A program made the translations under genes and the position numbers. A stretch of 64,000 bases of DNA, taken from NCBI GenBank assembly GCA_947503115.1, contig CANNCS010000005.1:1-64000 (forward strand), given 5' to 3'. Under the pieces are notes generated by a model. The model did no database searches, was not told the origin of the DNA, and worked only from the letters and a program-made list of their open reading frames with translations. This DNA is from an uncultured Marivita sp. (GTDB lineage Bacteria > Pseudomonadota > Alphaproteobacteria > Rhodobacterales > Rhodobacteraceae). Shown piece after piece: positions 7,250 to 24,050 of this stretch (its first letter is position 1; the number at the start of each line of letters is the position of its first letter).

Positions 7250-8023
7250 TCAGGCGCTTGCGCGGGCAGAAGGCAGTGTCAGCGCGTCTGAGATCGCCTC
7301 GGCATGGTCGCGGATGGCGTCACGCAGCGCGGCCAGTTGGTCTTTGGTCAAGGTGGTCTCTTCGGTGGACAGACACAGCGCCCCGATCGGGGTGCCATCG
7401 CCTGCGAGGATTGGGGCTGCGACACCCACGAGGCCGGGTGTCACTTCTCCCCGCGCGGTAGCGACCCGGTTACGGCGGATGCGCTTTAATTCTGTGAGCA
7501 CTGCGTCTTTGGTTGATCCAATGCCCGACGTGACAAAAGCGTCCAGAAAGTCACTGACCAGCGCCGCACGATCCTTGGGCGGCAAGAAGGCAACAATGGC
7601 GCGGCTGACCGCCCCTTTGCCAATCGGCATCGGACGTCCACGCGGATAGGATGAACGCGGCTCGGGTGCAGAGACCCGCGACGCGACGCAGAGCATCTTC
7701 TGATCATAGAACCGGACGATAAAGGCAGAGCCCACAAACGTGGCGGCCAAAACATCCAGATGCGGATCGGCAATTTTGATCAATGGATCAGACCGCTGCA
7801 TCAGGAAATCCAACTCGGTCACGCGCGGTCCCAACGTATAGCCCGCCTGTGGGAGCGAAACGAGATAGCCTGCATCCTTGAGCGTCTTGAGATAGCGGTA
7901 GAGCGTCGGGCGCGAAAACCCCAATGCCTGCATCATATCTTCGGGTGTCCACTCGGGGGTTTCTTCCGAAAACAATCCGAGGATGGCCAGCAGGCGTTCA
8001 CCAGATCCAGAAACCGATCTCAT
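7250..8023 (-). CDS. IclR-family transcriptional regulator
   Basis: A 257-residue regulator. Residues 1-65 form a winged helix-turn-helix (ERLLAILGLFSEE, then LGFSRPTLYRYLKTLKDAGYL). Residues 75-245 form the IclR effector-binding domain, containing the typical RGRPMPIGKGAVSRAIVAFLP and VGVAAPILAGDGTPIGALCLS segments. IclR proteins usually control neighbouring aromatic-acid or glyoxylate genes and respond to a small organic acid. The gene is embedded in the operon: its start overlaps the TRAP permease stop by 4 bp and an aldehyde dehydrogenase follows after 26 bp. A candidate operator is the inverted repeat upstream of the binding-protein gene at 10981-11014, but that link is inference. Confidence 0.9.
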   Translation of the reverse strand: MRSVSGSGERLLAILGLFSEETPEWTPEDMMQALGFSRPTLYRYLKTLKDAGYLVSLPQAGYTLGPRVTELDFLMQRSDPLIKIADPHLDVLAATFVGSAFIVRFYDQKMLCVASRVSAPEPRSSYPRGRPMPIGKGAVSRAIVAFLPPKDRAALVSDFLDAFVTSGIGSTKDAVLTELKRIRRNRVATARGEVTPGLVGVAAPILAGDGTPIGALCLSTEETTLTKDQLAALRDAIRDHAEAISDALTLPSARASA

Positions 8024-9939
8024 TGCGCCTCCTCCGGTGCCAAGGGGACGGCACGGCGTCGGAACATCTCGCTCGCGATCAGAGCCAGCCCCAGAACCAC
8101 GCCCGCCGCATCGGTCAGGATGGCGCCCTTAAACGCGCCTGCGGGCACCAGAGCCATCAGTCCAGTGGCCACAAACAACAGCCGTTTCAGGGGCGACAGT
8201 CGGTCCGAGAAATACCCGGCCAAGCCTGCTGAGACCAACCAGACGCCCAAGCCTGCTGTAATCACCGCAAAAATGATCTCGCCAGTTTCGCCGACAAGGA
8301 TCAGTGACGGGCTGAACACAAAGAGCACGGGGATCACATACGCTGCCCAGCCGAACCGCATTGCGGCCCAACCTGTGGCCATGGCGGGCGCTTTGGCGAT
8401 GGCCGCGGCAGCAAAGGCGGCCATCGCGATGGGGGGGGTGATCATCGACATCATGCCGAAATACAACACATACAGATGCGCTGCTATGGGTTCGATCCCA
8501 ACTTCGATCAGGGCAGGGGCGACCAGTGCGGCCAGCAGGACGTAAACGCCCAACGTGGGCAGGCCCATGCCAAGGATGATGCATACGATGGCCGATAGTG
8601 CCAGCAGCATCACCGCGCTGCCGCCGCCCACCTGCACCAGTGCATAGGTCAGGTTGAAGCTGAGACCGGTGATGTTGAGAACACCGATCACCATGCCCGA
8701 GGCAGCCGAGATCAGCAGGATCTCTACCACGCCATGACCAGTGCGCGCAAAGCTGCCGAACAGCGCGCGGATGGTTGGACGAGCGCCGCGATAGCCGAAG
8801 ATCAGCGCGGTGGCACAGAGCGCGAGCGCCGACCAGAGGGCCGCGCGTTCGGGTTGGTAGCGCAGCCAGAAGAGCAGGTAGATCAGCACGGCAAAGGCAG
8901 AGGCGAAATGCAGTCCGACCAGCACGGTGCGGCGGGCCGGAATCTCGGATTCGGGCACGCGCTGGATGCCCAGTTTCGCGGCTTCAAGGTCGGCCTGAAT
9001 GAACAGCGCGACATAGTACAGGATCGCAGGCAAGAGCGCCGCCATAACGATCTGGCTGTAGGGGATGGCCAGAAACTCGGCCATCAGAAAGGCCGACGCG
9101 CCCATTACCGGAGGCATGAGTTGCCCACCGGTTGAGGCCACGGCTTCGATCGCGCCAGCCTTGTGCGCAGGGTAGCCATCGCGCTTGATCATCGGGATGG
9201 TGACCACGCCTGTGCCGACAACATTGGCGACGGCGGATCCCGAAATCGACCCGAATAAGCCGGACGCAAGAACTGAGATCTTCATCGACCCACCGCGAAA
9301 CCGTCCCATGCCGATCATGGCGGCGTCGGTAAAGAATTGCGATCCACCTGTGATGCCCAGCAATACTCCGAACAAGATGAATGCGATTACCACGGTCGAG
9401 GCGACCGACATCGGGAGTCCTAGCACGCCATTGGAATCGACGGCTAGATATCCCGCCAGCAATTGCCAATTCTGGGGTCGGCCCTGAAGTCGCCCGGGGA
9501 TCAGGTCTCCGAACAGCGCATATAGCAGGAAAGCGGCAATGATCAGTACAAGCGCCCAACCTGTTGCCCGTCGCAATGTTTCCAGCAGTACCCCGATGAT
9601 GATGACGCTGGTGATCCAAAGCTCAGGGGGGCGGGCAAAGATCATCAGGACCAGATCAGGGTAATTCACCGTGATGTACCCAATCGCCGCCATTCCCAGC
9701 GCGGCAAGCACCAAGTCATGAAGGGGCACATCCTCACGCGTTGCACCGCGCCGGGCAGGCAAAGTGAAGAATGCCAATGGCAGGGCAAAAAACAGCACCC
9801 CCGCAAAGAACTGCTGCGGATAAAGGTCCAGACCGAGCGTGCGCTGAAACGACAGCGCCCAACCCACGGCCAACAGGACAAGGCAAGCGGCAAACAAGTC
9901 GGCCAGAGGTTTGGCAAAACGCGCGGGCAAGGCAGGCAT
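8020..9939 (-). CDS. TRAP transporter fused permease (DctQM, TAXI type)
   Basis: A 639-residue polytopic inner-membrane protein. It fuses the small (4-TM, DctQ-like) and large (DctM-like) TRAP membrane subunits, as is usual for transporters that use TAXI binding proteins. The DctM part begins near residue 120 and carries the hallmark segments FGSISGSAVANVVGTGVVTIPMIKR and VASTGGQLMPPVMGASAFLMAEF, then GLPTLGVYVLLAALVAPAL. TRAP systems import organic anions driven by a sodium or proton gradient. It lies between the TAXI binding protein and the IclR gene, whose start it overlaps (ATGA). The substrate is probably the carboxylate handled by the downstream hydroxylase and dehydrogenases. Confidence 0.92.
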   Translation of the reverse strand: MPALPARFAKPLADLFAACLVLLAVGWALSFQRTLGLDLYPQQFFAGVLFFALPLAFFTLPARRGATREDVPLHDLVLAALGMAAIGYITVNYPDLVLMIFARPPELWITSVIIIGVLLETLRRATGWALVLIIAAFLLYALFGDLIPGRLQGRPQNWQLLAGYLAVDSNGVLGLPMSVASTVVIAFILFGVLLGITGGSQFFTDAAMIGMGRFRGGSMKISVLASGLFGSISGSAVANVVGTGVVTIPMIKRDGYPAHKAGAIEAVASTGGQLMPPVMGASAFLMAEFLAIPYSQIVMAALLPAILYYVALFIQADLEAAKLGIQRVPESEIPARRTVLVGLHFASAFAVLIYLLFWLRYQPERAALWSALALCATALIFGYRGARPTIRALFGSFARTGHGVVEILLISAASGMVIGVLNITGLSFNLTYALVQVGGGSAVMLLALSAIVCIILGMGLPTLGVYVLLAALVAPALIEVGIEPIAAHLYVLYFGMMSMITPPIAMAAFAAAAIAKAPAMATGWAAMRFGWAAYVIPVLFVFSPSLILVGETGEIIFAVITAGLGVWLVSAGLAGYFSDRLSPLKRLLFVATGLMALVPAGAFKGAILTDAAGVVLGLALIASEMFRRRAVPLAPEEAQ

Positions 9940-10009: not shown

Positions 10010-10960
10010 TCAGTTCAGGCCCACTTCCTCGAAAAAGCGCAGCGCTCCTGGGTGGAACTCGGCGATACCGGGGTCACCTTTCATGTTGGCGGGTTTGAAT
10101 GCTCGGAAGGGCGGGAACGTGTCTGCCATCACTTTGGCGTTTTCATACATTGCCTTGGCCATTGCATAGACCGCGTCGTCTGATGCGTTGGCGTGGGTGA
10201 AGATCACCTGTGGGAAGGCAATGTAGACCGTGTCTTCCAAAACACCGGGCATCGCGCCTGCGGGCAAGGTGGTGAAGAACGCGGTCGGCCAATGTTCGCG
10301 TGCTGCTGCAAGAGCGGCTTCGCTGTCATCCTCAACCCCCAGCGCGCGCAGCCCCCCAACGGCGGCATCCGCCTCGCGAACCTTGCCCGCGCCATGGGCA
10401 AAGATGAAGCCTACAGTGTCACCTGCCATGAAGGCATCCGCCCCGGCGACCACGCTGGCGACTGATACCTTTTCCACGTCATCCCTCGTCATGCCTGCGG
10501 TCGCGTAGAAGGCGGCAAGCTGCGGCAGGATTGTGTTCTGCGCGGTGTAGCCATCGGTCATCGGCTGGCCCTTGAGATCAGACACTTTCATGATGTCGCC
10601 GTCGGCACGCACGAAGATTGCCTCGACCAGTGGCATCAGATGCGCCACGACGCGCAGGTTGGGGTTCGTGCGGCCACCCCACCATTCTTCGCCGGTTATG
10701 GCGTAGTTGACCTCTTGCAGGTTCGCCACGCCGAATTCGATGCCACCCTGATCAATGAACGGAATGAACTGGTTGGGGCTGGTAGCGGGCTGGATCGTGG
10801 TATTCAGGCCAGCTGCGTTGGCGGCATTTGCTACGGCGGTCCCGATATTGTGGAACAGTGATCCGGGGTTTGATGTGGCAATGCCGACATTCTGCGCGCT
10901 GGCCGATGTGGCAAGTGTCGCGCCTAAAAATACCGCCGCCGCGGTGAGTAGCGTCTTCAT
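10010..10960 (-). CDS. TAXI-family TRAP solute-binding protein
   Basis: A 316-residue periplasmic binding protein. A Sec signal peptide (MKTLLTAAAVFLGATLATSASA, cut before QNVGIATSN) is followed by the TAXI pattern: NPGSLFHNIGTAVANAAN near residues 31-48, then the GGIEFGVANLQE segment near 72-83. The mature protein would capture an organic anion and deliver it to the fused DctQM permease encoded next. It is the first gene of a minus-strand unit (binding protein, permease, IclR, aldehyde dehydrogenase, monooxygenase, SDR) and is divergent from a TPP-enzyme gene. The ligand is not predictable from sequence. Confidence 0.9.
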   Translation of the reverse strand: MKTLLTAAAVFLGATLATSASAQNVGIATSNPGSLFHNIGTAVANAANAAGLNTTIQPATSPNQFIPFIDQGGIEFGVANLQEVNYAITGEEWWGGRTNPNLRVVAHLMPLVEAIFVRADGDIMKVSDLKGQPMTDGYTAQNTILPQLAAFYATAGMTRDDVEKVSVASVVAGADAFMAGDTVGFIFAHGAGKVREADAAVGGLRALGVEDDSEAALAAAREHWPTAFFTTLPAGAMPGVLEDTVYIAFPQVIFTHANASDDAVYAMAKAMYENAKVMADTFPPFRAFKPANMKGDPGIAEFHPGALRFFEEVGLN

Positions 10961-11071: not shown

Positions 11072-12766
11072 ATGTTAAAAGAAACGGCTCGCCCCAAGAC
11101 GGGCGGCGAAGCGCTTTTGATGGCTCTGAAGGTCTCTGGTATCGACTATATCTTCGCCAATGCCGGAACCGATTTTCCACCTATTATCGAGGGGCTTGCG
11201 CGTCTTTCTGAAGGTGACGTCCCAGCTCCGGTCACGGTCCCGCATGAAACGGCAGGCGTGGCTATGGCGCATGGGTATTGGCTGGTCACTGGGCGTCCAC
11301 AGGCGGTTATGGTGCATGTAAATGTCGGTTTGGCGAACGCAGTTATGGGGGTTATCAACGCGGCATCCGACAATGTGCCGGTTTTCGTGTTGTCAGGGCG
11401 CACGCCATTGACGGAAACCGGGCGCAAGGGCGGGCGAATGACACCGATTCAGTACGGGCAGGAAATGTACGATCAGACCAGTCTTGTTAGGGACGTGGTC
11501 AAGTTTGACTACGAATTGCGCTATCCCGAACAGGCGGACAGCGTGACCAAACGCGCAGCTTCGCTGATGATCAGTGCGCCGGAAGGTCCGGTCTACATGA
11601 GCCTGCCGAAAGAGCCGTTGACCGAACCCTTGCCGAGCGGTTTTACCCCTGTGCCGGCTCCTGTCAGCGCGACACCTGCCGCACCAGATGGAATTGCAAT
11701 TGCCACGCTGGCGGCCTGGATTGCTGAGGCCAAAGCACCCGTCGTTCTGTGCCAGCGTGGCGATCTGGAGGGGCAGCTCTCTGCACTCTTGTCGCGCTCT
11801 GCCGATGCGTTCGGGCTGGCTGTGGCGGAACCGTTCAGCATCCGCAACGTACTGGCCTCCGATGATCCGGCGCATTTGGGTTACAATCCAAAGGTGGCAA
11901 CAGCGCAGGCGGATCTGGTGATCGTTTTGGACAGTGGCGTACCGTGGATTGAAGCGGTCAGTGCGCCGGACAAAGACACGCGTGTTGTACATATCGGCCC
12001 AGACCCCTTGTTCCGCCGGATGCCTGTGCGTGGGTATCGCACCGATTTGGCGATAACCGCCGATCCGGCGATGGCGCTTGACGCGCTATTGGCGCTGACG
12101 CCTGATCCCGGTGCGTCTGCTCGGCGCGGTGCGGTCCAAGCCAGGGTCGCGGCGTTGCGCGAAGCCAAGATTGAACCCGATGCGGGCGGCGATGGTTCGA
12201 TGACCGCCGAATGGATGAGCGCCTGTGTATCAGAGATCATGGATGACAACGCAGTGGCGTTCTCTGAACTGGGTCTGTTGCTACCCCACATGACACTGAA
12301 AGGTCCGAACCGCGTGTTTTCAAACGTACATGCCGGTGGTTTGGGCTGGGCAATGCCTGCCGCCTTGGGCGCGCAACTGGCCGATGGTGACAGGCTGGTG
12401 ATCGCTTGCGTGGGGGACGGGTCGTACATGTTCGCCAACCCGGTGGCATGTCATCAGATTGCGGAAGCGCTGGGCCTGCCGATCCTGACCATCGTCAAGA
12501 ACAATGCCATGTGGAACGCGGTGCGGAGGTCGGTGATCAAGGGTTACCCGGATGGCGCGGCAGTCCAGCAGAACCGTATCCCGCTCACTTCGCTTGAACC
12601 GCTGCCGGACTTCACACAAATCGCCAAGGCCAGCCGCGCCCATGCGGAACGGATCAACCACGGTGCAGACCTGCCTGACGCATTGCGCCGCGCGGTCGAA
12701 GTGATCCGCACTGAACGCCGACAGGTCTTGCTAGACCTGTCGGTCGCAGCCTCGGACGACTTTTAA
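11072..12766 (+). CDS. Thiamine-diphosphate-dependent enzyme (acetolactate synthase/decarboxylase-like)
   Basis: A 564-residue enzyme with the three-domain POX/IlvB architecture. The N-terminal PYR domain carries the cofactor-activating glutamate in VPHETAGVAMAHG (E59). A central domain covers about residues 195-345. The C-terminal PP domain has the ThDP/Mg motif CVGDGSYMFANP and the downstream VKNN. Enzymes of this group cleave or join 2-oxo acids. Overall it resembles unassigned 'TPP-requiring' proteins more than a biosynthetic acetolactate synthase, and no small subunit is nearby. The ATG follows AGGGAGG by four bases. It overlaps the next exporter gene by one base (TAATG), so the enzyme and exporter are coupled. 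The actual 2-oxo acid is unknown. Confidence 0.8.
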   Translation: MLKETARPKTGGEALLMALKVSGIDYIFANAGTDFPPIIEGLARLSEGDVPAPVTVPHETAGVAMAHGYWLVTGRPQAVMVHVNVGLANAVMGVINAASDNVPVFVLSGRTPLTETGRKGGRMTPIQYGQEMYDQTSLVRDVVKFDYELRYPEQADSVTKRAASLMISAPEGPVYMSLPKEPLTEPLPSGFTPVPAPVSATPAAPDGIAIATLAAWIAEAKAPVVLCQRGDLEGQLSALLSRSADAFGLAVAEPFSIRNVLASDDPAHLGYNPKVATAQADLVIVLDSGVPWIEAVSAPDKDTRVVHIGPDPLFRRMPVRGYRTDLAITADPAMALDALLALTPDPGASARRGAVQARVAALREAKIEPDAGGDGSMTAEWMSACVSEIMDDNAVAFSELGLLLPHMTLKGPNRVFSNVHAGGLGWAMPAALGAQLADGDRLVIACVGDGSYMFANPVACHQIAEALGLPILTIVKNNAMWNAVRRSVIKGYPDGAAVQQNRIPLTSLEPLPDFTQIAKASRAHAERINHGADLPDALRRAVEVIRTERRQVLLDLSVAASDDF

Positions 12767-13515
12767 TGGACCCTGTGTCATTGGCCTTTGCCTTTATCGG
12801 CATCCTGTTGGGCGGGTTTCTAAAAGGCGCAACTGGGGCAGGAGCGCCGGTGGTGGGCGTGCCGGTTCTGGCCATCGTGTTCGATTTACCAATGGCGGTG
12901 GCGATATTTTCGGTGCTGAACCTTTGCACCAATATCTGGCAAAGCTGGGCCTTCCGGTCCGAAGTGACCGAACATCGCTTTGTCTGGATTTTTGCCGTGA
13001 TGGGTGCGGTGGGCGCGATTTTAGGGTCGGTTCTTTTGGCCTCATTGCCAGTGCCACTGCTCATGGCATCTTTGGCGGGCGTTGTGTTTGCCTATATCGG
13101 CCTTAGGTTGGCACGTCCCAACTGGCATCTATCTCGCGCGCGCGGGCGAAAGATGGGACCATATGTCGGTTTGGTAGGGGGCGTGATGCAGGGGGCGGGC
13201 GGGTTATCTGCACCGGTTTCAATCACGTTTCTGAACGCGCTGAACCTGCCCCGCAAAGAGTTCATTGCAACGATTGCGATCTTCTTCCTTGCGATGTCGG
13301 TCACGCAGGTGCCTGCACTTGCGGCATTGGGCATTCTAACATGGGATCGTTTGCTGCTTGCGTTCTTGGCGCTGATCCCGATGTTTCTGGGCATTCCCAT
13401 CGGATCATGGGCCGCGCGGTTCCTGTCAAAACAAGCGTTCGACCGACTGATCCTGTCGCTCTTGGCGGTGATCGCAGTCAAACTAATATGGGACGCAACG
13501 CAAGCCGGGCTTTAG
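12766..13515 (+). CDS. TauE/SafE-family anion exporter
   Basis: A 249-residue membrane protein with about eight hydrophobic helices. It has the two characteristic glycine-rich repeats of the TauE/SafE (DUF81) family: the N-terminal FIGILLGGFLKGATGAGAPVVGVP and, in the second half, VGGVMQGAGGLSAPVSITFLNAL. Characterised members export sulfite, sulfoacetate or other organosulfur anions; many have no known substrate. Its start codon overlaps the stop of the TPP-dependent enzyme by one base, so it probably exports a product or by-product of that reaction. Confidence 0.85.
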   Translation: MDPVSLAFAFIGILLGGFLKGATGAGAPVVGVPVLAIVFDLPMAVAIFSVLNLCTNIWQSWAFRSEVTEHRFVWIFAVMGAVGAILGSVLLASLPVPLLMASLAGVVFAYIGLRLARPNWHLSRARGRKMGPYVGLVGGVMQGAGGLSAPVSITFLNALNLPRKEFIATIAIFFLAMSVTQVPALAALGILTWDRLLLAFLALIPMFLGIPIGSWAARFLSKQAFDRLILSLLAVIAVKLIWDATQAGL

Positions 13516-13578: not shown

Positions 13579-15129
13579 TCAGGCTTTTTTGTCGGTCTCG
13601 GGCATGACTCCGTCCAGATTGACACCGATTTGATCTCCGATCTTTTTCATGGCGGGCAGCGCCACCGCCATGTCGAGGATCGAGTCGATGGTTTGGCTGA
13701 CGGGTGACGCGCTGCTACCGCTGTCGGATTTTCCCAGACCCGTGACATGGTTGATGTTGATGCCCCGGATTTTCTCAGCGGGTTTAACCATCTCGGCCAC
13801 GATCTTGGGCATTGCCTCAAGCCGCGCCTTTTCCAACTCCATCGAAACAAGCTCTTTCGACCGGGTGTTTTCCGCCTTGATGCGTTCCGCTTCCGCTTCG
13901 GCTTCTGCGGTCTTGTAGACCTTCATGGAGGCCGCTTCTTCGCGCCTGATAACGCCCTTGGCCTTGGCCACTTCTTGATCCACGACCGAAATGATCCGCG
14001 CTCGTTCAGCGTTGGCCTCTGCGTCCTGACGAGCAGCCATCAAGGCCAGCGCCTTGCGCCGCTCTGCCTCGGCCATTTCTCGCAGGGTCTGGATATCCTC
14101 TTCGGCCTTGACCAGTGCGGAACGAGCCAATGTCGCTTCGGCGCGGGCTTTGGATTCCTCTTCGCTTTTCGCGGCGGTTTGGATGACTTTTTCCTGCTCG
14201 GCGATTTCAAGCGCCCGGAGTTGGGCGATCTCGGCTTCGCGCACCTGCAATTCACGCTGGATCGAGGTGGCTTGAATTTCCTGTTCCATGCGGATGCGCG
14301 CCTGCGCAGCCTCGCGTTCGGCTTCGGCCTTGCGGCGGGCAACCTCGGTCAGCTGCGCAGCCAACAGCGTTTCGATTTCCTGTGTCTGCGCAATCTCAGC
14401 GCGGCGTTCTTCGAGTTCGATCTGAAGACGCCGCTGGTTCGCTTCCACCTCGGCACGTCGGACGGCCACGGCGGTTTCGCCCTCGATCTCGGCGCGTTCC
14501 TTTTTGGACTTGGCAATCACCTCGGCCAGCTTGCGCATGCCGACGGCGTTGAAGGCGTTGTTTTCGTCCAAAGACGAAAACGGCGTTTGATCCAGCGCAG
14601 TCAGAGACACACTGTCGAGTTGTAATCCGTACTTCACCAGCGTGTCGGCCAACGCCTCGTGCACCTCGAGCACGAATTCCGACCGGTTCTCGTGCAGTTC
14701 GTCCATCGTCATTTGTGCCGCGACCGACCGCAGGGCGTCGACCATCATCCCGTCGATCAGCGACTTGAGCTGATCCGGCTGAAAGGTACGTTTGCCAAGG
14801 GTCTGCGCGGCGCGGACGATTGATGCCTCTTCGGGCTGAACCGAAGCATAGAATTCGGCACCCACATCGATGCGCATCCGATCCTTTGTGATCAGTGCGC
14901 TGTCACCGGCACGGATCACTTCCATTCGGATCGTTTGCATGTTGACGCGGCTGATCTCGTGAAAGAACGGAATGGCAAGAGTGCCACCGTCGATCACGAC
15001 CTTGCGGCCGCCAACCCCAGTGCGCACAAGGCTGATTTCGTTGGTGGCGCGTTCATAGAACCACGCGGCCAGCGCGATCACGATGGCGGCGATAACGAAT
15101 AGCAGGATGATCCATCCAAGGGCTGTCAT
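13579..15129 (-). CDS. Flotillin-like SPFH/band 7 protein
   Basis: A 516-residue membrane-anchored scaffold protein. One N-terminal transmembrane helix (residues 4-24) is followed by an SPFH/band-7 domain (about 30-200, with GTLAIPFFHEISRVN and the QLDSVSLTALDQTPFSSLDENNAFNA end). A very long charged coiled coil (about 205-455) is rich in Ala-Glu repeats. The tail (SDSGSSASPVSQTIDSILDM) is flotillin-like. Such proteins oligomerise into membrane microdomains. No NfeD partner is adjacent, which is unusual for bacterial flotillins. It is the last gene of a transport/catabolic operon, 23 bp after an aldehyde dehydrogenase, and is followed by a hairpin terminator. A role in organising that uptake pathway is speculation. 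Confidence 0.85.
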   Translation of the reverse strand: MTALGWIILLFVIAAIVIALAAWFYERATNEISLVRTGVGGRKVVIDGGTLAIPFFHEISRVNMQTIRMEVIRAGDSALITKDRMRIDVGAEFYASVQPEEASIVRAAQTLGKRTFQPDQLKSLIDGMMVDALRSVAAQMTMDELHENRSEFVLEVHEALADTLVKYGLQLDSVSLTALDQTPFSSLDENNAFNAVGMRKLAEVIAKSKKERAEIEGETAVAVRRAEVEANQRRLQIELEERRAEIAQTQEIETLLAAQLTEVARRKAEAEREAAQARIRMEQEIQATSIQRELQVREAEIAQLRALEIAEQEKVIQTAAKSEEESKARAEATLARSALVKAEEDIQTLREMAEAERRKALALMAARQDAEANAERARIISVVDQEVAKAKGVIRREEAASMKVYKTAEAEAEAERIKAENTRSKELVSMELEKARLEAMPKIVAEMVKPAEKIRGININHVTGLGKSDSGSSASPVSQTIDSILDMAVALPAMKKIGDQIGVNLDGVMPETDKKA

Positions 15130-15152: not shown

Positions 15153-16628
15153 TCAAAAGACCGGCGGGTAATGGCGACCGCCGCGTTCGAGCGTGATCCA
15201 CCGTAGTTCCGTAAACGCATCCAGCGACCAGCGCCCGCCATAGCGGCCCACGCCCGAGGCCTTGACCCCGCCGAAGGGCACTTGCGGTTCGTCGTTGATG
15301 TTCTGATCGTTGACATGGACCATTCCGGTCTCAAGCCGCCCCGCCATGCGCAACGCGCGGCCTTCGTTGGCGGTCCAGACAGCGGCGGTTAGGCCGTATT
15401 CGGTGTCGTTGTTCATCTCGATCGCTTCGTCTTCGGTGCGGAACGGGGCGACAATGACTACGGGACCAAAGGTTTCATCGTGCCAGATGTCCATGGATCG
15501 GTCGACATGGGTAAGCACCGTTGGTTCGACAAAGTTCTCCCAGGCATTGCCACCCAAGGCCAAATGCGCGCCTTTGGCGACGGCATCGTCGATCAGGGCT
15601 TTGACACGATGCGCCTGACGGGTGTTCACAAGTGGGCCGATAACGTTGGTCTTGTCGTTCACATGTCCGGTCTTGAGTTTGGACGCGCGGGCTAGGAATT
15701 TTTGCATGAACGGCTCGTAGACGCTGTCGTGTATCAGCAACTTTTCTGTAGACATGCAGACCTGACCCTGGTGCATGAAACTGCCGAAATTCGCGGCCTC
15801 GGCGGCTTTGTCGAGATCGGCATCTTCGAGAACGATCATCGAGTCCTTACCGCCTAGCTCGACGCAGCACTTCTTGAGATGCGCACCGCATTTGGCTGCG
15901 ATGTGGCGACCCACAGCGGTTGATCCAGTGAATGAGATGCCTTTGACGCGAGGGTCTTCGATCAACGCATCGCCTACTTCGCCCACGCTGTCCCGCGAAC
16001 AGGTGACGACGTTGAAAACCCCTGCTGGAACGCCTGCTTCCTCAAGGACCTCGGCATGGAAAAGTCCGCCGGAATAGGGCGTGTCTTCGGACGGTTTCAG
16101 CACTACGCAATTGCCAGCCGCAAGTGCCGCCGCATAACCGCGCGAAGTCAGGATGCCAGGCATGTTCCAAGGCGAGATGACACCGACAACGCCCAAGGGC
16201 CAGCGTGTTGCCATCGACACCTTACCATCAGCCGAAGGCAGGACCTCACCCGTCGCTTGGTAGCAGAGAGAAGCTGAGGTGCGGAAAATCTCGGCGACGA
16301 ACCCGGCTTCGAACACACCCTTGCCGAACCATCCGCCGCCCTCGTGCATCACGGCATGGATGAAGCCGTCCTTGCGGCTGTCCCAAACATCCGCGATGCG
16401 CAGCAGCATCTTGGCGCGTTCCTGAAACGTTTTGCCTGACCATTCCGGGAATGCGGCCTGTGCGGCGGAAATGGCAAGGTCCATGTCGGTGGCGCTGCCA
16501 TCAGGAATGCGGGCGTACAGCGAATTGTCCGACGGGTTCAGGTCATCAAAAGTGCGGGCGGCGGGCACCCAATTTCCTCCGATATACAGGCCTCGGATGG
16601 TTGGAGCAGAGGAGGTCGTATCGAGCAT
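15153..16628 (-). CDS. Vanillin/benzaldehyde dehydrogenase-like aldehyde dehydrogenase
   Basis: A 491-residue NAD-dependent aldehyde dehydrogenase with oxyanion N155 (SPWNMP), cofactor motif SFTGSTAVG (232-240), general base E257 (VELGGKDS) and nucleophile C291 (HQGQVCMSTEK). The CMSTE context and the C-terminal VPFGGVKASGVGRYGG pattern are typical of vanillin, benzaldehyde and salicylaldehyde dehydrogenases. It lies 4 bp from the LivF gene and 23 bp before the SPFH gene, in an operon headed by a second CMSTE-type enzyme at 21589. This suggests that imported aromatic aldehydes or alcohols are oxidised to acids. The exact substrate needs biochemical data. Confidence 0.88.
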   Translation of the reverse strand: MLDTTSSAPTIRGLYIGGNWVPAARTFDDLNPSDNSLYARIPDGSATDMDLAISAAQAAFPEWSGKTFQERAKMLLRIADVWDSRKDGFIHAVMHEGGGWFGKGVFEAGFVAEIFRTSASLCYQATGEVLPSADGKVSMATRWPLGVVGVISPWNMPGILTSRGYAAALAAGNCVVLKPSEDTPYSGGLFHAEVLEEAGVPAGVFNVVTCSRDSVGEVGDALIEDPRVKGISFTGSTAVGRHIAAKCGAHLKKCCVELGGKDSMIVLEDADLDKAAEAANFGSFMHQGQVCMSTEKLLIHDSVYEPFMQKFLARASKLKTGHVNDKTNVIGPLVNTRQAHRVKALIDDAVAKGAHLALGGNAWENFVEPTVLTHVDRSMDIWHDETFGPVVIVAPFRTEDEAIEMNNDTEYGLTAAVWTANEGRALRMAGRLETGMVHVNDQNINDEPQVPFGGVKASGVGRYGGRWSLDAFTELRWITLERGGRHYPPVF

Positions 16629-16632
16629 GGCG

Positions 16633-17787
16633 TTATCTCCTTGGCTTGTAGGTTTCAGCGCGTCGTGCCGCGGCTTCGATGTCTTCGATCATCGAACGCA
16701 ACCGATCTGACGACGACGCGAAGTCCGGGATGGCGGGCTGCGCCGAACGTGTGGGTTGCGTTGGCGCGGGCTGTGTCGTGGGGGCACGCGGCGGCGGCGT
16801 TGCTCCGTTGCGACGTGACGCGGTAGCACTGGCTTTGGCCACCAGATCCGAGATGTCGGGCGTGTCGAGTTTTTGAACTGCGGCAGTGCCGTTGGCTACG
16901 GGTGCTGGTTTGGGTGCAGGTGCAGTGGGTTTGATCACCGGAACAGGTCGCGCCGGAGCGCCGACCGATTTCATCGCTGCCGCTGCGATCTCGTTCGGTT
17001 TTGGTCCTGTCGCTGGGCGCGGGATGGCGGGTGTCGGCGTGGCCGCCGGGGCAGGGCGTCTGGCCCCGGTCGCAGCACCACTACCGCCAAGATAGGCTTT
17101 CTGAACCGCCGGGTCATTCGCCAGCCGCTCTGCATCATCCTCGTGCACGATGTTTCCGTTCTCCAAGAGGTATCCCCGATCCGCGATGCGCAGGCTTTGC
17201 TTGGCATTCTGTTCGACCAGCAAGATGCCCAGCCCAGCCTGTTTGACGACACGCAGGCTTTCGAACAGGTCTTTGCAGAGCAAGGGCGACAAGCCCAACG
17301 ATGGTTCATCCAGCGCTAGGATCGACGGGTTCGACATCATCGCGCGACCGATAGCGACCATCTGCTGCTCACCACCCGACATGGTGCGCACGGTCTGCTT
17401 GCGACGTTCGCCCAGTTTCGGGAACAGTGACAGAACCCGTTGCAGGTTGCCCGCCGCTTCATCCCGCGCCCGTTCGGCATAGGCTCCAAGCGTCAGGTTT
17501 TCCTCGACCGTCAGATCACCGAACACGCCGCGCCCTTCGGGTACGAGGGCGATCCCAGCTTCCACGATCTTGTGCGGCTTTTCCCCGACCAACTGCGCGT
17601 TCTCAAGCTGCACATCCCCGGCGACATACCCTTCGCAGATCCCGCAGACCGCTTTGAGCAGTGTCGATTTCCCGGCGCCATTCGCACCAAGGATGACAAC
17701 GATTTCTCCCTTGCCGACGCGCAAAGATGCGCCGCCCAAGGCGCGGTGCTTGCCATAACTGACGGACAGGTTGCGGACCTCAAGCAT
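16633..17787 (-). CDS. livF: Branched-chain-type ABC transporter ATPase (LivF) with long C-terminal tail
   Basis: A 384-residue protein. Residues 1-233 are an ordinary LivF ATPase: Walker A GANGAGKST (34-42), signature MSGGEQQ (136-142), Walker B ILALDEP, and the LivF-type ending LANDPAVQKAYLG. Residues 234-384 are extra: about 125 residues rich in Pro, Ala and Thr, ending in a charged segment (SSDRLRSMIEDIEAAARRAE) that could form a short amphipathic helix. Normal LivF proteins stop near 235 residues. The gene overlaps livG by 8 bp and ends 4 bp before an aldehyde dehydrogenase gene, so no frame error is needed to explain the extension. The tail's role is unknown. Confidence 0.9.
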   Translation of the reverse strand: MLEVRNLSVSYGKHRALGGASLRVGKGEIVVILGANGAGKSTLLKAVCGICEGYVAGDVQLENAQLVGEKPHKIVEAGIALVPEGRGVFGDLTVEENLTLGAYAERARDEAAGNLQRVLSLFPKLGERRKQTVRTMSGGEQQMVAIGRAMMSNPSILALDEPSLGLSPLLCKDLFESLRVVKQAGLGILLVEQNAKQSLRIADRGYLLENGNIVHEDDAERLANDPAVQKAYLGGSGAATGARRPAPAATPTPAIPRPATGPKPNEIAAAAMKSVGAPARPVPVIKPTAPAPKPAPVANGTAAVQKLDTPDISDLVAKASATASRRNGATPPPRAPTTQPAPTQPTRSAQPAIPDFASSSDRLRSMIEDIEAAARRAETYKPRR

Positions 17788-18517
17788 CGTAATCCCCCAG
17801 ATAGGCGCGGATCACTTCGGGGTCGGACAGCACCTCTTCGGGCGTCCCCTCGGCGATCTTTAGCCCCGTCGACATGACCACACAGCGATCACAAAGCGAC
17901 CGGATCGCGTCCATCACATGCTCGACCAGAATGATCGTGCGCCCCTCGTCGCGCAGGCGCTTGATCAGCGTGATGCCTTCCTCAAGCTCGGTCGGGTTCA
18001 GACCCGCCAGCCATTCGTCCAGCAGCAGTACCTTGGGTTCAGACGCCAGCACGCGAGCCAGCTCGACGCGTTTGGTGTCGATATAGGTCAGTTCCCCAAC
18101 ATGGGCATTGGCACGACGGTCCAGCCCCACAAGCGCGAGCATCCGTAGCGCATGGGCATCCGCCTCGGCCCCCCAGCGACGGCGATGGCCGAACACAGCG
18201 CCGGCACGGACGTTTTCGAGTACGGTCATCGACGGCAAAAGTCGGACCAACTGGAACGTGCGGGCAATGCCACGCCGGGCGATGTCCGCCGCAGAAAGGT
18301 GCGAAATCGGCGTGCCGCGCAGGGAAATCGTGCCTTCGGTTGGCTTCAATGCGCCGGAAATGAGGTTCAGCGTCGTGGACTTGCCTGACCCGTTGGGGCC
18401 GATCAGGCCTAGCACCTCGTGTTCGGTCACGTCGAAATCCATGTCGTTGACAGCAACCAGCCCGCCAAACCGTTTGGTGGCCCCGCGCAGGGATAGAACT
18501 GTGGGACCAGTGGTCAT
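17780..18517 (-). CDS. livG: Branched-chain-type ABC transporter ATPase (LivG) with altered signature
   Basis: A 245-residue ATPase of the HAAT (Liv) uptake family. Walker A is GPNGSGKST (40-48), the Q-loop is ARTFQLVRLLPSMTVLENV, and Walker B is VLLLDEW (163-169). The C-loop reads LTYIDTK (143-149) where standard LivG has an LSYGQQ-like motif, so the glycine-rich signature is absent. The partner LivF has a full MSGGEQ. ATP sites in the LivGF pair would therefore be unequal. Walker B is followed by WLAGLNP instead of the common PAAGMNP. It overlaps livM by 4 bp (ATGA) and livF by 8 bp. Confidence 0.88.
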   Translation of the reverse strand: MTTGPTVLSLRGATKRFGGLVAVNDMDFDVTEHEVLGLIGPNGSGKSTTLNLISGALKPTEGTISLRGTPISHLSAADIARRGIARTFQLVRLLPSMTVLENVRAGAVFGHRRRWGAEADAHALRMLALVGLDRRANAHVGELTYIDTKRVELARVLASEPKVLLLDEWLAGLNPTELEEGITLIKRLRDEGRTIILVEHVMDAIRSLCDRCVVMSTGLKIAEGTPEEVLSDPEVIRAYLGDYDA

Positions 18518-19455
18518 GCAAACGCCTCCCGTTCCCGCATCTTGCGTTTGCCGCTTTCGATCAGGCCCACAAAGCCACGCGGCAGCAGGTAGACGATGAC
18601 GAGGAAGCTCAGACCCAGAAGCAGCGTTGTTTGGTTCGGGAAACTAGCGGAAATCGCCTCCCACAGAAGGGTGAAGGGGATTACGCCCACGAGTGGTCCC
18701 CAAAGCCGACCCGTGCCGCCCAAGAGCGCCATGATAACCACGAGAAAGGACAGCATTGGCGTGAAGGCCAGCGCGGGTTCGATGTAGATATACCGGGGTG
18801 CCAGCATCGACCCGACCACCGCCGCCGTCGCGCCCGATACCATGAACAGCAGGATCTTGGCCCGCGATGTATTGATCCCGGAATGGCGCGCGACCTCTTC
18901 GTCATCACCGATGATGCGTAGCGCGAACCCAAGCCGCGACCGCCCGATGGCCCAGCCGGTCAGGTAGACGATCCCGCCCAGCACCAACAGTTGCAAGTAG
19001 ATGTGCACTTCGGTGATATCGGTTAGGACGTATAACCCCTTCTGCCCCGATACGTTCTGACCCCATGTCACAACCTGACGCACCAGCTCGGCGAGTCCCA
19101 AAGTGAAAATCACGAAATAGACACCCGACAGTCGTAGCGTTGCGAGGCCTACCAAAGCTGCGAGAACCGCGCCAAGGATCGCAGCTATTGGCAGCGTCAC
19201 CCAGTAGTTCAGCCCGTTCTCGATCCCGATGGCGGTGGTGTATGTGCCAAGGCCAAAGAATGCGGCCGTTGCGAGTGAGATAAAATGCGTTGGGCCTGAG
19301 AAAAGTGCCCAGCTTGTCGCCAGCACCGCATACATCGCGATGGTGATGCCGATGGACAGCATATAGGCGTCACCGGTCAACGGCAGGCAGGCGGCGACCG
19401 CCAGCAAAACCGCCGAAAGCGTGATGGATTGCCAGTCGCGTTTGGCCAGGCTCAT
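18514..19455 (-). CDS. livM: Branched-chain-type ABC transporter permease (LivM)
   Basis: A 313-residue inner-membrane permease of the HAAT family with eight to nine hydrophobic segments. Hallmarks are the internal FALRIIGDDEEVARHSGIN cytoplasmic loop that contacts the ATPase, and the conserved GGTGRLWGPLVGVIPFTLL segment near residue 245-265. It overlaps livH and livG by four bases each (ATGA), so the four transporter genes are translationally coupled. Given its placement between two aromatic-aldehyde-type dehydrogenases, the transporter probably imports aromatic acids or related compounds rather than leucine, though this is inference. Confidence 0.9.
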   Translation of the reverse strand: MSLAKRDWQSITLSAVLLAVAACLPLTGDAYMLSIGITIAMYAVLATSWALFSGPTHFISLATAAFFGLGTYTTAIGIENGLNYWVTLPIAAILGAVLAALVGLATLRLSGVYFVIFTLGLAELVRQVVTWGQNVSGQKGLYVLTDITEVHIYLQLLVLGGIVYLTGWAIGRSRLGFALRIIGDDEEVARHSGINTSRAKILLFMVSGATAAVVGSMLAPRYIYIEPALAFTPMLSFLVVIMALLGGTGRLWGPLVGVIPFTLLWEAISASFPNQTTLLLGLSFLVIVYLLPRGFVGLIESGKRKMREREAFA

Positions 19456-20318
19456 GTCGTGCGCCTCCCGAACAGGCCCTGTGGTCGGAAGAGTAGGATC
19501 AGAACAAAGAGCAGATACGCCGCAGCGAGTGTCAGGCCGGGGTCGATCAATGTGGCCACGAAGGTCTCCAAGATACCCAGCAAGAGTGCGGCCACGATGG
19601 TGCCGCGCACATCGCCCACGCCTCCCATGATCACGATCACCAGGGCCTTGAGCGTGAACATCACGCCGGTTGATGCGTCCAGAGTGAGAAAGGTCGAAAT
19701 CAACGCGCCGCCCATGGCCGTCACGGCACCGCCAAGCGCAAACGCCAGTGCGGAAAGCTTCGGCACATCAATGCCAACCAACCGCGCGCTTTTGGGATCA
19801 ACCGCAATCGCCCGGATCGACATGCCCGCCCGGGTGTGGTTCAGCCAAAGCCATAGTCCGCCGCAGATGATCACCGCCGCAACCGCCGCCGTCACGCGGT
19901 TCAGCGCGTAGGTGTCGCCGATCAGGGTGATTGGACGGGCGAGGTAGGAATAGGAAAAGTAGTCACCGCCAAAGAGCGCGAGCATGATACCGACGGACAC
20001 GAAAGCCAGTCCGAACGTGGTCAGGATCGCGTCAACCTCAAGCTGGCCATGCGACTTGGCGCGTTTGACCAGTGGGCGCAGCATCACCACATAAATCAGC
20101 CAGTTCAGCCCAAACGCCAGAGGCGCCACTATGAAGATCGTCAAAAGCGGGCTGACCTGTCCCGCCGTATAGAACCAGAAGGCCGCAAAGCCGCCCGCCA
20201 CAAGGAATTCCCCATTGGCGAGGTTCATGATCCTTGCCACGCCGTATTGCAGGTTCAGCCCCATCGCGATCAGCGCGTAGGTGCCGCCCAGCAAAAGCCC
20301 TGTGATCAGAATGTCCAT
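19452..20318 (-). CDS. livH: Branched-chain-type ABC transporter permease (LivH)
   Basis: A 288-residue permease of the LivH type. It opens with the typical TGLLLGGTYALIAMGLNLQYGVARIMNLANGEF segment (residues 6-38), has the cytoplasmic coupling loop MSIRAIAVDPKSARLVGIDV near 170, and the LKALVIVIMGGVGDVRGTIVAALLLG signature near 225-250. About eight membrane helices are expected. It is separated from the upstream binding-protein gene by 54 bp containing a GC hairpin, and overlaps livM by four bases. Together with LivK, LivM, LivG and LivF it makes a complete HAAT importer. Confidence 0.9.
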   Translation of the reverse strand: MDILITGLLLGGTYALIAMGLNLQYGVARIMNLANGEFLVAGGFAAFWFYTAGQVSPLLTIFIVAPLAFGLNWLIYVVMLRPLVKRAKSHGQLEVDAILTTFGLAFVSVGIMLALFGGDYFSYSYLARPITLIGDTYALNRVTAAVAAVIICGGLWLWLNHTRAGMSIRAIAVDPKSARLVGIDVPKLSALAFALGGAVTAMGGALISTFLTLDASTGVMFTLKALVIVIMGGVGDVRGTIVAALLLGILETFVATLIDPGLTLAAAYLLFVLILLFRPQGLFGRRTT

Positions 20319-20372: not shown

Positions 20373-21575
20373 TTATTCCCAGCCGGTCTTGGGCATTGCC
20401 GCGACAGCGCCGTCACGCCCGGTGGAGGCCACGCCCTTGAAGACGCCGCCCTGCCACTGACCCACGGTCCAGTACTTGGCATTCGAGTTGTTCTCGTCCC
20501 ATGTGATCGGGCCGATGATCGTGTCGAAATCGTTGTTGGCGATATATTCCGCAACAGCCGCCTTGTCGGTGGTGCCAGCGCCTTCGATGGCCTGTTGCAG
20601 GATTTGGAACGACGCATAGGCTGGTGCCGAGGCCCAGAAGTCAGGCTTGGCGCCTGTCACAGCCTCGTGGCGGGCTGCGTAATCCTTGAACGCGTCGCCA
20701 TCTGCGAACACACCGCCTGCGCCCAAGACGCCTTCAGCGGCGGCACCGAACCGTGCACCGTAGGACGGGAACGCGGTGGCCACGGCTGTGTAGAACGCCT
20801 TGGGCGACAAGCCCGCGATCTGGGCCTGTTCGGTGAGGCCGAACGTGTCTGGCGGATAGGACCACGCGACAAATGCATCTGGGTTTGAATCCCGCGCACC
20901 GTTGATAACAGGGGACAAGTCCTGTGTGCCTAACGGGTAGGACGAGTCGTAGACGATCTCGAACCCGGCGGCCTCGAACTGCGGACGTGCTGCTTCGGCC
21001 AGTTCGATGCCGAACGCGTCGGCCACGTTGACCATTGCGACCGAACTGCCAATCTCGCCCGCATCGCGCATCTGACTCAGAACGTCGATCACGCCACCCG
21101 CAAGGCCAGTTGCTCCTCCCAGCAGGAAGTACATGTTTGGAAACTTACCCGACAGGTCTTCGATCTGGTCGGAAATCGCTGTGTGCGTGACCATCGGGTA
21201 GCCGTAGCGTTCAAAGATCGGTGCCGCCGCGATGTTCAAACCGGTCCCATAGGGCGCAAGAATGAAATCTGCTTCATCCTGTGTCGCCAGCCGCTGCACC
21301 GCCTTGATCGTTTCGCCGGGGTTGGTTTGATCATCGTATTCGATGACTTCAACCATCATTTTGGTGCCGCCAACGTCGATACCGCCTGCTTCGTTCACGT
21401 CATGCGCCCAAAGCTGTACGTTCGGCCAGAACGTAACTGCGCCGCCGCCCGCAAGCGGACCAGTCTTTGGACCAACTGCGCCGATCTTCAACATTTCCTG
21501 CGCGGCCAACGGGCCGGTCAATGCCGTGGCAACGGTCAGGGCCGCGGCCAATCCGAATAGGTTTCTTCGTTTCAT
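20373..21575 (-). CDS. livK: Branched-chain-type ABC transporter substrate-binding protein
   Basis: A 400-residue type I periplasmic binding protein (Peripla_BP_6). A Sec signal peptide (MKRRNLFGLAAALTVATALTGPLAA) is followed by QEMLKIGAVGPKTGPLAGGG, the standard LivK-like first strand, then NEAGGIDVGGTKM and VEVIEYDDQTNP. The start at 21575 is chosen because the signal peptide begins there and the ribosome site AGGGAGGACGAC precedes it; longer in-frame starts would run into the preceding gene. It is the second gene after an aldehyde dehydrogenase (13-bp gap). The ligand is probably an aromatic or amide-like organic anion, judging only from neighbours. Confidence 0.88.
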   Translation of the reverse strand: MKRRNLFGLAAALTVATALTGPLAAQEMLKIGAVGPKTGPLAGGGAVTFWPNVQLWAHDVNEAGGIDVGGTKMMVEVIEYDDQTNPGETIKAVQRLATQDEADFILAPYGTGLNIAAAPIFERYGYPMVTHTAISDQIEDLSGKFPNMYFLLGGATGLAGGVIDVLSQMRDAGEIGSSVAMVNVADAFGIELAEAARPQFEAAGFEIVYDSSYPLGTQDLSPVINGARDSNPDAFVAWSYPPDTFGLTEQAQIAGLSPKAFYTAVATAFPSYGARFGAAAEGVLGAGGVFADGDAFKDYAARHEAVTGAKPDFWASAPAYASFQILQQAIEGAGTTDKAAVAEYIANNDFDTIIGPITWDENNSNAKYWTVGQWQGGVFKGVASTGRDGAVAAMPKTGWE

Positions 21576-21588
21576 GTGTCGTCCTCCC

Positions 21589-23034
21589 TTATTGATTATT
21601 GGTCTTGCCCTCGGGCGAGGGCTGGTCGTGAATGGCGATCCATTGGCATTCGGTGAATTCGACCACCGCATCGCGTCCGCCGAAGCGCCCATAGCCCGAC
21701 GCCTTGACGCCGCCGAAGGGTAGGCGGGGGTCGTCATAGACCGTCGATCCATTGACGTGACCGATCCCTGTTTCGATCTGGTAGAGCATGTCTTTTGCGG
21801 CGTCCGTGTTCCGGCTGAAGACCGAGGCGACGAGGCCGAAATCCGTGTCGTTGGCAATGGCCAGCGCCTCTTCCGCATCGGCCACGCGGATGACGCCAGT
21901 CACGGGGCCGAACGCCTCTTCGTCATAAAGCATCATGCCGGGTGCGACCCGGTCCAGCACTGCAGGCTGCAACCCGCCTCCCGACAGCTCGCCCCCGGTG
22001 ACCAGAACCGCGCCCTTGGACACTGCATCGTCAATCATCGCCCGCACCCGCACCGCCGCTGCAGGGCTGATCAGCGCACCAAGCGGACTTGCCTGTCCGG
22101 GCGCAAATCGCAGCGCCTCGGCCTCTTGTGCCAACCGGGCAACCAAAGCATCCGCCACCAATGTGTCGGCGATCACCCGTTCCGTTGACATGCAGATTTG
22201 GCCTTGGTTGAAGAAACTGCCATGCGCGATAGCGCGGGCGGCAAGGTCGATATCCGCATCCGCCAGAACAACCGCTGTTCCCTTGCCCGACAGTTCCAGC
22301 AGGCAGGGCTTTAAATGCTTGGCTGCGCTCACCGCAATCTCGCGACCGACGCGGGTCGATCCGGTGAAATTCACACGCCGAACAGCCGGGTGGGCGATCA
22401 ACGCATCCACAACTTCTTCGGCATGATCAGGCGCATTCGTGATGTAATTCAGCACGCCATCCGGCAAACCTGCATTGCAGATCGTGTCGGCGACCCACTC
22501 ATGTGTCTTGGGGCAGAGTTCCGAGCCCTTTAGCACAACGGTGTTGCCACACGCCAAGGGCGCAGCGACGGCGCGGGTGGCCAGAGTGACCGCCGCGTTC
22601 CAAGGGGCAATGCCCAGAACAACACCCGCCGGTCTACGGCACAGGATGTGCCCTTCCACCGGGCTTTCCGTGTTGTCGAGAAAGTCAGCCAGATCAGATG
22701 TCTGGCGCAGCATTGCCGCAGCCAATTCGACGTTGAAGCGCACCCAATCGGGGGATGATCCCACCTCAGCACAGGCGATCTCGACCACCTCGGCGGCATG
22801 CGTCTCAAGCGCGTCGGCGGCATTTCGCAATAGCCCGATGCGGTCACGAACCGGAGTTGCGGCCCAATCGGCAAAGGCACTGGCCGCAGCTACAGCTGCG
22901 GCGCGCGCCTCGGCTGCACGTCCGGCGGCGGCACGGGTCACAACGGCATCTGACACCGGATCGCGTCTTTCAAACGCAACAAGCGGATCAGGCGCGATGC
23001 GTCGCCCTGCAATTATTAAGCGGGTTTCGTACAG
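21589..23034 (-). CDS. Aldehyde dehydrogenase, probable CTG start
   Basis: A 481-residue aldehyde dehydrogenase with oxyanion N146 (APWNAA), cofactor motif NFTGSTRVG (222-230), general base E247 in LELSGKG, and nucleophile C281 in NQGQICMSTER. The CMSTE context relates it to vanillin/benzaldehyde dehydrogenases and to the enzyme at 15153. Homology should begin at YETRLIIAGRRI, and directly before it is CTG (23032-23034) five bases after GGAGG. There is no ATG, GTG or TTG between that point and residues that would overlap the divergent AraC gene, so a CTG start is proposed. It heads the liv/aldehyde dehydrogenase/SPFH operon. The second glycine of the usual LELGGK is serine here. Confidence 0.85.
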   Translation of the reverse strand: MYETRLIIAGRRIAPDPLVAFERRDPVSDAVVTRAAAGRAAEARAAAVAAASAFADWAATPVRDRIGLLRNAADALETHAAEVVEIACAEVGSSPDWVRFNVELAAAMLRQTSDLADFLDNTESPVEGHILCRRPAGVVLGIAPWNAAVTLATRAVAAPLACGNTVVLKGSELCPKTHEWVADTICNAGLPDGVLNYITNAPDHAEEVVDALIAHPAVRRVNFTGSTRVGREIAVSAAKHLKPCLLELSGKGTAVVLADADIDLAARAIAHGSFFNQGQICMSTERVIADTLVADALVARLAQEAEALRFAPGQASPLGALISPAAAVRVRAMIDDAVSKGAVLVTGGELSGGGLQPAVLDRVAPGMMLYDEEAFGPVTGVIRVADAEEALAIANDTDFGLVASVFSRNTDAAKDMLYQIETGIGHVNGSTVYDDPRLPFGGVKASGYGRFGGRDAVVEFTECQWIAIHDQPSPEGKTNNQ

Positions 23035-23112
23035 ATGCTCCTCCCCAGGCTCACTGAACGCAGCCGTCTCCCTCCGGCTGAGATATAAAATCGTTCGGAA
23101 GTACCCCGAGTA

Positions 23113-23142: not shown

Positions 23143-23156
23143 CTGTGGGATTGTTG

Positions 23157-24050
23157 ATGCCAAACTTTCGTTTCCACGGCTCCGCAACCGTCCGGGCAGG
23201 GGCTCTGACAGGGGGCCTGCGCAGCCGCATTGTCGGTTTGGCAGAAAGCCTTCGAGGCCCGTCATGGTGCGCCGTTTTGCTTGAGGAAGGCGGTGCTGTT
23301 CTAGCCGAGGAAGACGTGCGCATCGACGCGCCGGTTCTGGCATGGCGTCGGTGGCACGAAACCTCTCGTCTGCGGTTCGATGCGGGTGCGGTTGGCACCT
23401 ATGTGCTGCTTAGTGCCAGTGCCTTGGGCAACACGATCGGCCACTTGCCCGAAGCTCGTGATTTGCGTGATGTGGCCGATCACAACTTGACGGTGCCGCT
23501 GCACCACGGATCGGAACAGGGCTCTGCCTTGCGTACTGCTTTTGCTGGGATCCGCCGCGAACTGGAGGAAGATGCTGTAGCGGCTCACGTGGTGGTCGAG
23601 GCCTATCTACGGGTGATTCTGATCGAACTTCTACGCGCCGCGCCAAGTTATTCTGATGGTCCACAGGGGGGCAGCCCATCACACCGCGCCTTTACCCGGT
23701 TCAGTACATTGGTTGAACGGCATTTCCGTGATCGCTGGACAGTATCGCTTTATGCCGAGACCCTGGGTGTGACCCGCGACCGGCTGGGCGACATCTGCCA
23801 GCGCGTGCGAGGGCTTGGGCCCAAGGACATCATCGATCGGCGTGTGATGATCGAAGCGCGGCTGCTGCTGGAAACTTCAGGGCAATCCGTGAACGAGATT
23901 GCAAGCGCGCTGGGTTTTGGATCGGCAGCACAGTTCAGCCGGTTTTTTGTGCGTCACGCAGCCCAGCCGCCGGGTGCATATCGTGTGGCGTTTCTAAAGG
24001 GATTAGAGCAGGGCGTCTCTGATCCTGGGCGGCCATTCGATTGGCCATGA
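23157..24050 (+). CDS. AraC-family transcriptional regulator
   Basis: A 297-residue regulator (ATG at 23157; a GTG twelve bases earlier is in frame, but the ATG has GGGA nearby). The N-terminal 170 residues are a cupin-like effector domain. The C-terminal 100 residues carry the two AraC HTH motifs: WTVSLYAETLGVTRDRLGDIC and SVNEIASALGFGSAAQFSRFF, followed by APPGAYR-like AQPPGAYR. It is transcribed divergently from the aldehyde dehydrogenase/liv operon, and the shared promoter region contains an inverted repeat. It therefore most likely activates that operon in response to an aromatic compound or aldehyde. Confidence 0.85.
   Translation: MPNFRFHGSATVRAGALTGGLRSRIVGLAESLRGPSWCAVLLEEGGAVLAEEDVRIDAPVLAWRRWHETSRLRFDAGAVGTYVLLSASALGNTIGHLPEARDLRDVADHNLTVPLHHGSEQGSALRTAFAGIRRELEEDAVAAHVVVEAYLRVILIELLRAAPSYSDGPQGGSPSHRAFTRFSTLVERHFRDRWTVSLYAETLGVTRDRLGDICQRVRGLGPKDIIDRRVMIEARLLLETSGQSVNEIASALGFGSAAQFSRFFVRHAAQPPGAYRVAFLKGLEQGVSDPGRPFDWP

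Follow-up and report, generated by a model that had tools for sequence, protein, structure and literature searches.

The flotillin gene of the window (the whole stretch of 64,000 nucleotides analysed here, from an uncultured Marivita sp.) lies in an operon for an ABC importer of the Liv type, and the importer ATPase LivF encoded in the same operon carries a C-terminal extension. Among the loci compared, LivF was extended where a flotillin gene was present on the same strand, with one exception, and short where it was absent, and this pairing recurred in three types of Liv operon. We propose, as probable but with considerable reserve, a transport metabolon in which the flotillin is a scaffold around the importer and the LivF tail holds the first catabolic enzymes.

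The earlier note on this DNA had described a complete flotillin at the end of an operon with an ABC importer and two aldehyde dehydrogenases, and with no nfeD gene adjacent. Both observations were confirmed, the first by the domains and the gene order, the second across the whole genome, where neither NfeD (PF01957) nor YqiJ_OB (PF07290) had a match at E ≤ 0.001. The order of the genes is ALDH1-livJ-livH-livM-livG-livF-ALDH2-flotillin, and the genes overlap or are closely spaced (Table 1). Upstream, the operon is flanked by a divergent AraC gene; downstream, the TauE and ThDP-enzyme genes converge on it. The Liv (HAAT) importer set is complete, with a periplasmic binding protein, two BPD_transp_2 permeases and two ABC ATPases. 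For all five subunits the listed Liv/Urt equivalog models of NCBIfam (branched-chain amino acid, urea) scored below their cut-offs (246.6 bits against 441 for LivF, 216.7 against 362 for LivG and 87.6 against 477 for LivJ). The gap between ALDH2 and flotillin is 23 bases long and contains a GGGAGGA stretch resembling a ribosome site; the promoter scan gave no sigma-70-like match in it. In the whole region three sigma-70-like matches were found, with 2.8 expected from shuffles, the promoter and terminator scan being no richer than shuffled sequence, and a search for tandem repeats found none. Near the expected start of ALDH1 (23031–23110, minus strand) in-frame ATG, GTG and TTG codons are absent, and a GGGGAGGA stretch is followed by a CTG codon.

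Table 1. Features of the flotillin operon and its upstream neighbour in the window.
Feature	Position	Strand	Basis
Flotillin with SPFH domain, long helix and Flot domain; ends the operon	13579..15129	-	Band_7 and Flot above cut-off
ALDH2, aldehyde dehydrogenase closest to aromatic-aldehyde enzymes	15153..16628	-	Aldedh 531 bits
LivF, ATPase with C-terminal tail, 384 aa	16633..17787	-	genome-wide match comparison
LivF tail, residues 237-384, Pro/Ala-rich linkers and conserved short motifs	16633..17079	-	dN/dS against nine relatives
Tail motif SSSDRLRSMIEDIEAAARRAE, modelled as a helix in a relative	16639..16716	-	pattern shared by all 77 complete type A tails
Tail motif DISDLVAKA	16828..16857	-	tail comparison
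LivG, ATP-binding subunit	17780..18517	-	
LivM, permease	18514..19455	-	
LivH, permease	19452..20318	-	
LivJ, periplasmic binding protein; start placed at 21575, not at 21878	20373..21575	-	
ALDH1, aldehyde dehydrogenase; domain frame open from about 23031	21589..23031	-	
Divergent AraC-type regulator	23145..24050	+	

The flotillin itself is 516 aa long, with a Band_7/SPFH domain at residues 33–216 (75.6 bits, cut-off 23.6) and a Flot domain at residues 388–503 (94.5 bits, cut-off 27). It is the only Flot match of the genome at E ≤ 1e-5, and one of four Band_7 matches, and reached 63.8 bits with the FloT equivalog NF058507, below the threshold of 700 bits. The flotillins of its eight best relatives are 91–95% identical to it. 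In the predicted model an N-terminal helix (residues 3–29) is seen, as well as a single helix of 211 residues (212–422). The nearest solved proteins, in both sequence and fold searches, were chains of the human flotillin cage (9l3g/9bq2). A single chain was modelled, and the cage is not predicted directly because the pTM was 0.29 and the TM-scores to the cage chains were only 0.22–0.29.

The neighbourhood with liv and aldehyde dehydrogenase genes, seen at first in this one genome, turned out to be conserved. A flotillin scan with one genome per species gave 510 encoding stretches, and the best 80 of the 510, the nearest relatives and thus a biased sample, were kept. ALDH2 was on the same strand in all 80 of these, with flotillin directly downstream or separated by one dehydrogenase gene. 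LivF was found in 70 of the same best 80, the remaining 10 being short contigs that end before LivF; LivJ was present in 67, ALDH1 in 48, AraC in 48 and the dehydrogenase in 37. None of the 80 loci, all of type A (see below), had a YqiJ-like match (tblastn with two YqiJ queries). At the family level, a flotillin match at E ≤ 1e-30 was obtained in 66 of 198 genomes, and ALDH2 was present at all 17 best family matches, the window's own included (at least 60% identity, nearly full length). A flotillin gene with its own promoter and no co-occurrence with the operon elsewhere is therefore not what was observed: the linkage is conserved, and no promoter-like match precedes the gene. Loci of type A were found in Rhizobiaceae too, one of them (L063) on a plasmid record. 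Two records of the species scan (L050, L102), both metagenome-assembled, have gammaproteobacterial titles. At the phylum level, the Flot domain was found in 54 of 397 genomes, 12 of them outside Alphaproteobacteria.

The neighbourhood survey covered Alphaproteobacteria, where the Flot domain occurred in 57 of 387 genomes, at 77 places. The surroundings of the 76 other places were taken and 74 could be parsed: 27 flotillins were beside YqiJ, 36 had a same-strand LivF within 8.5 kb (with a Liv permease also present in 34 of the 36), and 11 had neither. The two main groups were mutually exclusive in this survey, with a YqiJ neighbour at none of the 36 LivF-linked flotillins and a same-strand LivF or Liv permease near none of the 27 YqiJ-paired ones. 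The missing NfeD-type partner is thus a general feature of LivF-linked flotillins. Among the 11 other loci, five had a divergent Liv operon, four had weak ABC matches only, and nothing was recognised at two. Three types of LivF-linked operon could be distinguished. Type A contains ALDH2, with or without a dehydrogenase gene (as in the window); type B encodes a LivF-amidase fusion, usually with the gene for an AMP-binding enzyme after it; type C encodes a fusion of LivF with UPF0261. In the flotillin tree, types A and B each formed one clade and were mutual neighbours with moderate support, and type C lay among YqiJ-paired flotillins. The length of type C flotillins varies from about 560 to 1,170 aa (L132–L134, L146–L188). 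In five genomes of one genus (L187, L189–L192), a flotillin is located near a divergent Liv operon with a short LivF, possibly a fourth arrangement.

Liv operons were also sought regardless of flotillin, with type A LivH in the 198 family and 387 class genomes, type B LivH in 192 genomes and type C LivF in 192. In this set, which was selected through matches to flotillin, LivH or LivF and not at random, 120 complete LivF with a same-strand flotillin were extended (78 of type A, 19 of type B and 23 of type C; the contigs of three, L235–L237, apparently repeat L082, L081 and L078) and one was short. This single short LivF belongs to a second Liv operon at L105, a locus whose own LivF is extended. 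All 41 complete LivF without a same-strand flotillin were short (229–253 aa from the match start) and none was extended; five of the 41 come from a single genus in which a divergent flotillin is close by, and were scored as lacking a same-strand one. Six of the 12 short type B LivF without flotillin had a separate amidase gene directly downstream (L255–L258, L261, L266). The type C LivF search gave three unfused forms, two of them with a separate UPF0261 as the next gene, and nine fused forms, all nine beside flotillin. In one genome (G118), a short LivF was found on one contig, and the contig with ALDH2 and flotillin encodes a tail end.

In the LivF tree, the extended forms fell into three clades, each with short flotillin-less sisters. 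The trees do not tell gain from loss of the extension, and the short forms of type C are placed within or next to the fused ones. Five supported pairs differed in flotillin, and LivF extension was concordant in 3.9 of them on average, opposite in 0 and without difference in 1.1 (p 0.125); these independent contrasts are too few for significance. The earlier suggestion that a dedicated scaffold gathers the importer and the enzymes is partly supported by these data, and is strengthened and widened by them: LivF is extended with flotillin and short without it, and from this we infer the assembly itself.

The tail of the window LivF, 148 residues long, had been overlooked in the earlier note. Of 51 LivF matches in the genome, the 50 others stop at query residue 271 or earlier. 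Type A tails are rich in alanine (20%) and proline (15%). The comparison of the window with nine relatives gave a dN/dS of about 0.20 for the tail, with 0.09 in the motifs and 0.27 in the linkers, and 0.06 for the ATPase core. By this measure the tail is under purifying selection, and its motifs nearly as strongly as the ATPase core. An origin of the tail from a frame or sequencing artefact was considered and rejected, given this selection and the 78 complete flotillin-linked LivF of type A (331–451 aa). The AlphaFold model of the LivF of a relative (L108) has a confident ATPase and low-confidence linkers; within the tail, it predicts with modest confidence helices at 279–292 and 299–328 and strands at 355–360 and 363–369. 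An initial, stricter helix pattern did not match 17 of 79 tails in which a variant can be seen or the sequence is masked, and it was relaxed for this reason. The relaxed version was found in all 77 complete type A tails, compared with 1.5% of 7,700 shuffled tails. A single docking motif common to types A, B and C was sought and not found. A TRW[S/G/A] pattern was present in 22 of the 23 type C linkers, between LivF and UPF0261, and in none of the 19 type B linkers.

The end of the tail followed the gene content of the operon. In type A, the terminal motif (as in PPVIEVYRRPRVEVYRRR) accompanied the dehydrogenase gene at all 41 loci that have this gene, three of them repeat records, and was absent from all 36 loci that lack it; the terminal pattern occurred in none of the 7,700 shuffled tails. 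The window operon, in which both are absent, is consistent with the rule. In the LivF tree the dehydrogenase and the terminal motif need five changes each and agree in every row, with one supported independent pair (p 1). L095, inside a dehydrogenase-bearing clade, has neither the dehydrogenase nor the motif, and L093 has neither the dehydrogenase nor an intact motif, an apparent decayed motif remaining. In three flotillin-less loci of one genus (L241–L243; the L241 contig ends soon after the dehydrogenase), the dehydrogenase is present and LivF is tailless, so that outside the flotillin setting the dehydrogenase needs no motif. Tracking of ALDH1 by the terminal motif was rejected, as 21 of 54 ALDH1 loci had the motif and 33 did not.

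ALDH2 accompanies the tail as invariantly as flotillin does (77/77), so ALDH2 might be the only partner that the tail serves. Together with the agreement between terminal motif and dehydrogenase, this would fit a tail that docks only enzymes on the importer, the flotillin being a generic microdomain or stability factor that encloses nothing. We consider this rather unlikely, as a purely enzymatic reason leaves unexplained that the sampled fusions of amidase and UPF0261 to LivF occur only with flotillin. The helix motif, shared by all complete type A tails whatever the enzyme set, could also be taken to mean that the tail binds flotillin itself and so recruits the importer, with the enzymes free in the cytosol. 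Such a role appears improbable: the terminal motif goes with the dehydrogenase gene, and the linkers of types B and C end in an enzyme and contain the type A tail motifs in 0 of 42 cases. Finally, flotillin and extended LivF may have been joined by chance in each type and then inherited or transferred as a block while remaining functionally uncoupled. The few independent events and the occurrence of type A in Rhizobiaceae and on a plasmid record would be in keeping with this. We judge it highly improbable in view of the same pairing in three LivF clades, of the selection on the tail and its motifs and of the joint presence or absence of dehydrogenase and terminal motif.

The enzymes give an indication of the substrate. 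The nearest solved relatives of ALDH2 are salicylaldehyde dehydrogenase (6qhn), vanillin dehydrogenase (9ihb) and 4-hydroxybenzaldehyde dehydrogenase. The dehydrogenase of sister loci belongs to the coniferyl-alcohol dehydrogenase subfamily PRK12428, with 289.5–298.3 bits (cut-off 242) in the five loci checked, three with flotillin (L109, L077, L150) and two without (L241 and L242, 296.6 and 298.3 bits). In the window, the interval between ALDH2 and flotillin contains no gene of this kind. Judged by ALDH2 and this dehydrogenase, an aromatic alcohol or aldehyde is a candidate substrate; the nearest solved relatives of LivJ, however, are general Leu/Ile/Val binders (E 5e-18). Converging on the flotillin gene in the window (11072–13515, plus strand) are the genes for a TauE-type exporter and for a ThDP-dependent enzyme of the PRK08327 type (626 bits), the latter with no solved relative at E ≤ 1e-30. 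Matches to the ThDP enzyme (45–48% identity) were found near three flotillin-less sister operons (L223, L224, L226), and it may for this reason share the pathway. Elsewhere in the window, a 639-aa DctM-type TRAP protein (8020–9939, minus strand) and an adjoining TAXI binding protein (10010–10960) lie together with an IclR regulator, another aldehyde dehydrogenase and an FAD-binding protein in a second catabolic cluster.

In the proposed metabolon, the LivJHMGF importer would import a small alcohol or aldehyde, aromatic or similar. By analogy with the SPFH cages around other membrane proteins, we infer that the flotillin encloses the assembly; it would oligomerise on the inner membrane around the importer, perhaps as a dome. 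The disordered LivF tail would provide docking motifs holding ALDH2, and in sister loci also the alcohol dehydrogenase, at the importer exit, and the substrate would therefore be oxidised on arrival. The benefit might be that less reactive aldehyde escapes, or that the substrate is retained. It is possible, although we would not call it probable, that flotillin-capped Liv importers make up a general class of bacterial membrane nanocompartments, in which LivF, in three separate lineages, acquired the first catabolic enzyme by fusion or docking; such fusion or docking would be explained by a dome that excludes soluble enzymes.

In architecture, the flotillin of the window resembles those of the YqiK/YqiJ- and FloT/YuaF-type operons (SPFH2 with NfeD2), and nine family relatives with a YqiJ-like neighbour are 53–56% identical to it (one pair was checked with Pfam). 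It differs from them in its neighbours, an ABC importer and enzymes, and in a genome with no YqiJ_OB or NfeD match. As 17 genomes with SPFH2 and without NfeD2 are counted in a passage of the 2009 SPFH survey (PMC2636767), the NfeD2 partner would be usual and not required. According to two cage papers (PMC11260169; PMC12407830), the basket that mammalian flotillin builds is attached to the membrane and measures 32 nm in width and 22 nm in height; FtsH-type proteases are found inside HflK/C, and AQP1 and UT-B inside stomatin cages. Such cages belong to the same SPFH family as the window flotillin and enclose membrane proteins, whereas in the present case a catabolic ABC importer and the enzymes tethered to it would be the putative cargo. 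In the flotillin-associated rhodopsin clusters, as presented in the main text of PMC10308929, a flotillin gene is likewise consistently beside a membrane-protein gene, but the partner is a rhodopsin and not an importer. The terms "ABC transporter" and "aldehyde" are absent from that main text, and from the main texts of PMC2636767 and of a 2026 Pseudomonas study (PMC13086221). Among the matches listed in a literature search (titles and abstract starts, with few subscription papers covered), neither flotillin with Liv importers nor tailed LivF, LivF-amidase or LivF-UPF0261 fusions were described.

The function of bacterial flotillins is an old open question, and the large group described here comes with a defined partner, enzymes and a candidate tether, so that the function becomes directly testable in Marivita, Mameliella or Neorhizobium. 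In bacterial microcompartments, encapsulation peptides made of a flexible linker and a short amphipathic helix bring an enzyme into the compartment. The motifs described here differ in being carried by a transporter ATPase, and the compartment would be on the membrane. If the enclosure is real, flotillin, and not a closed shell, would form a metabolic compartment on the membrane that is coupled to an importer.
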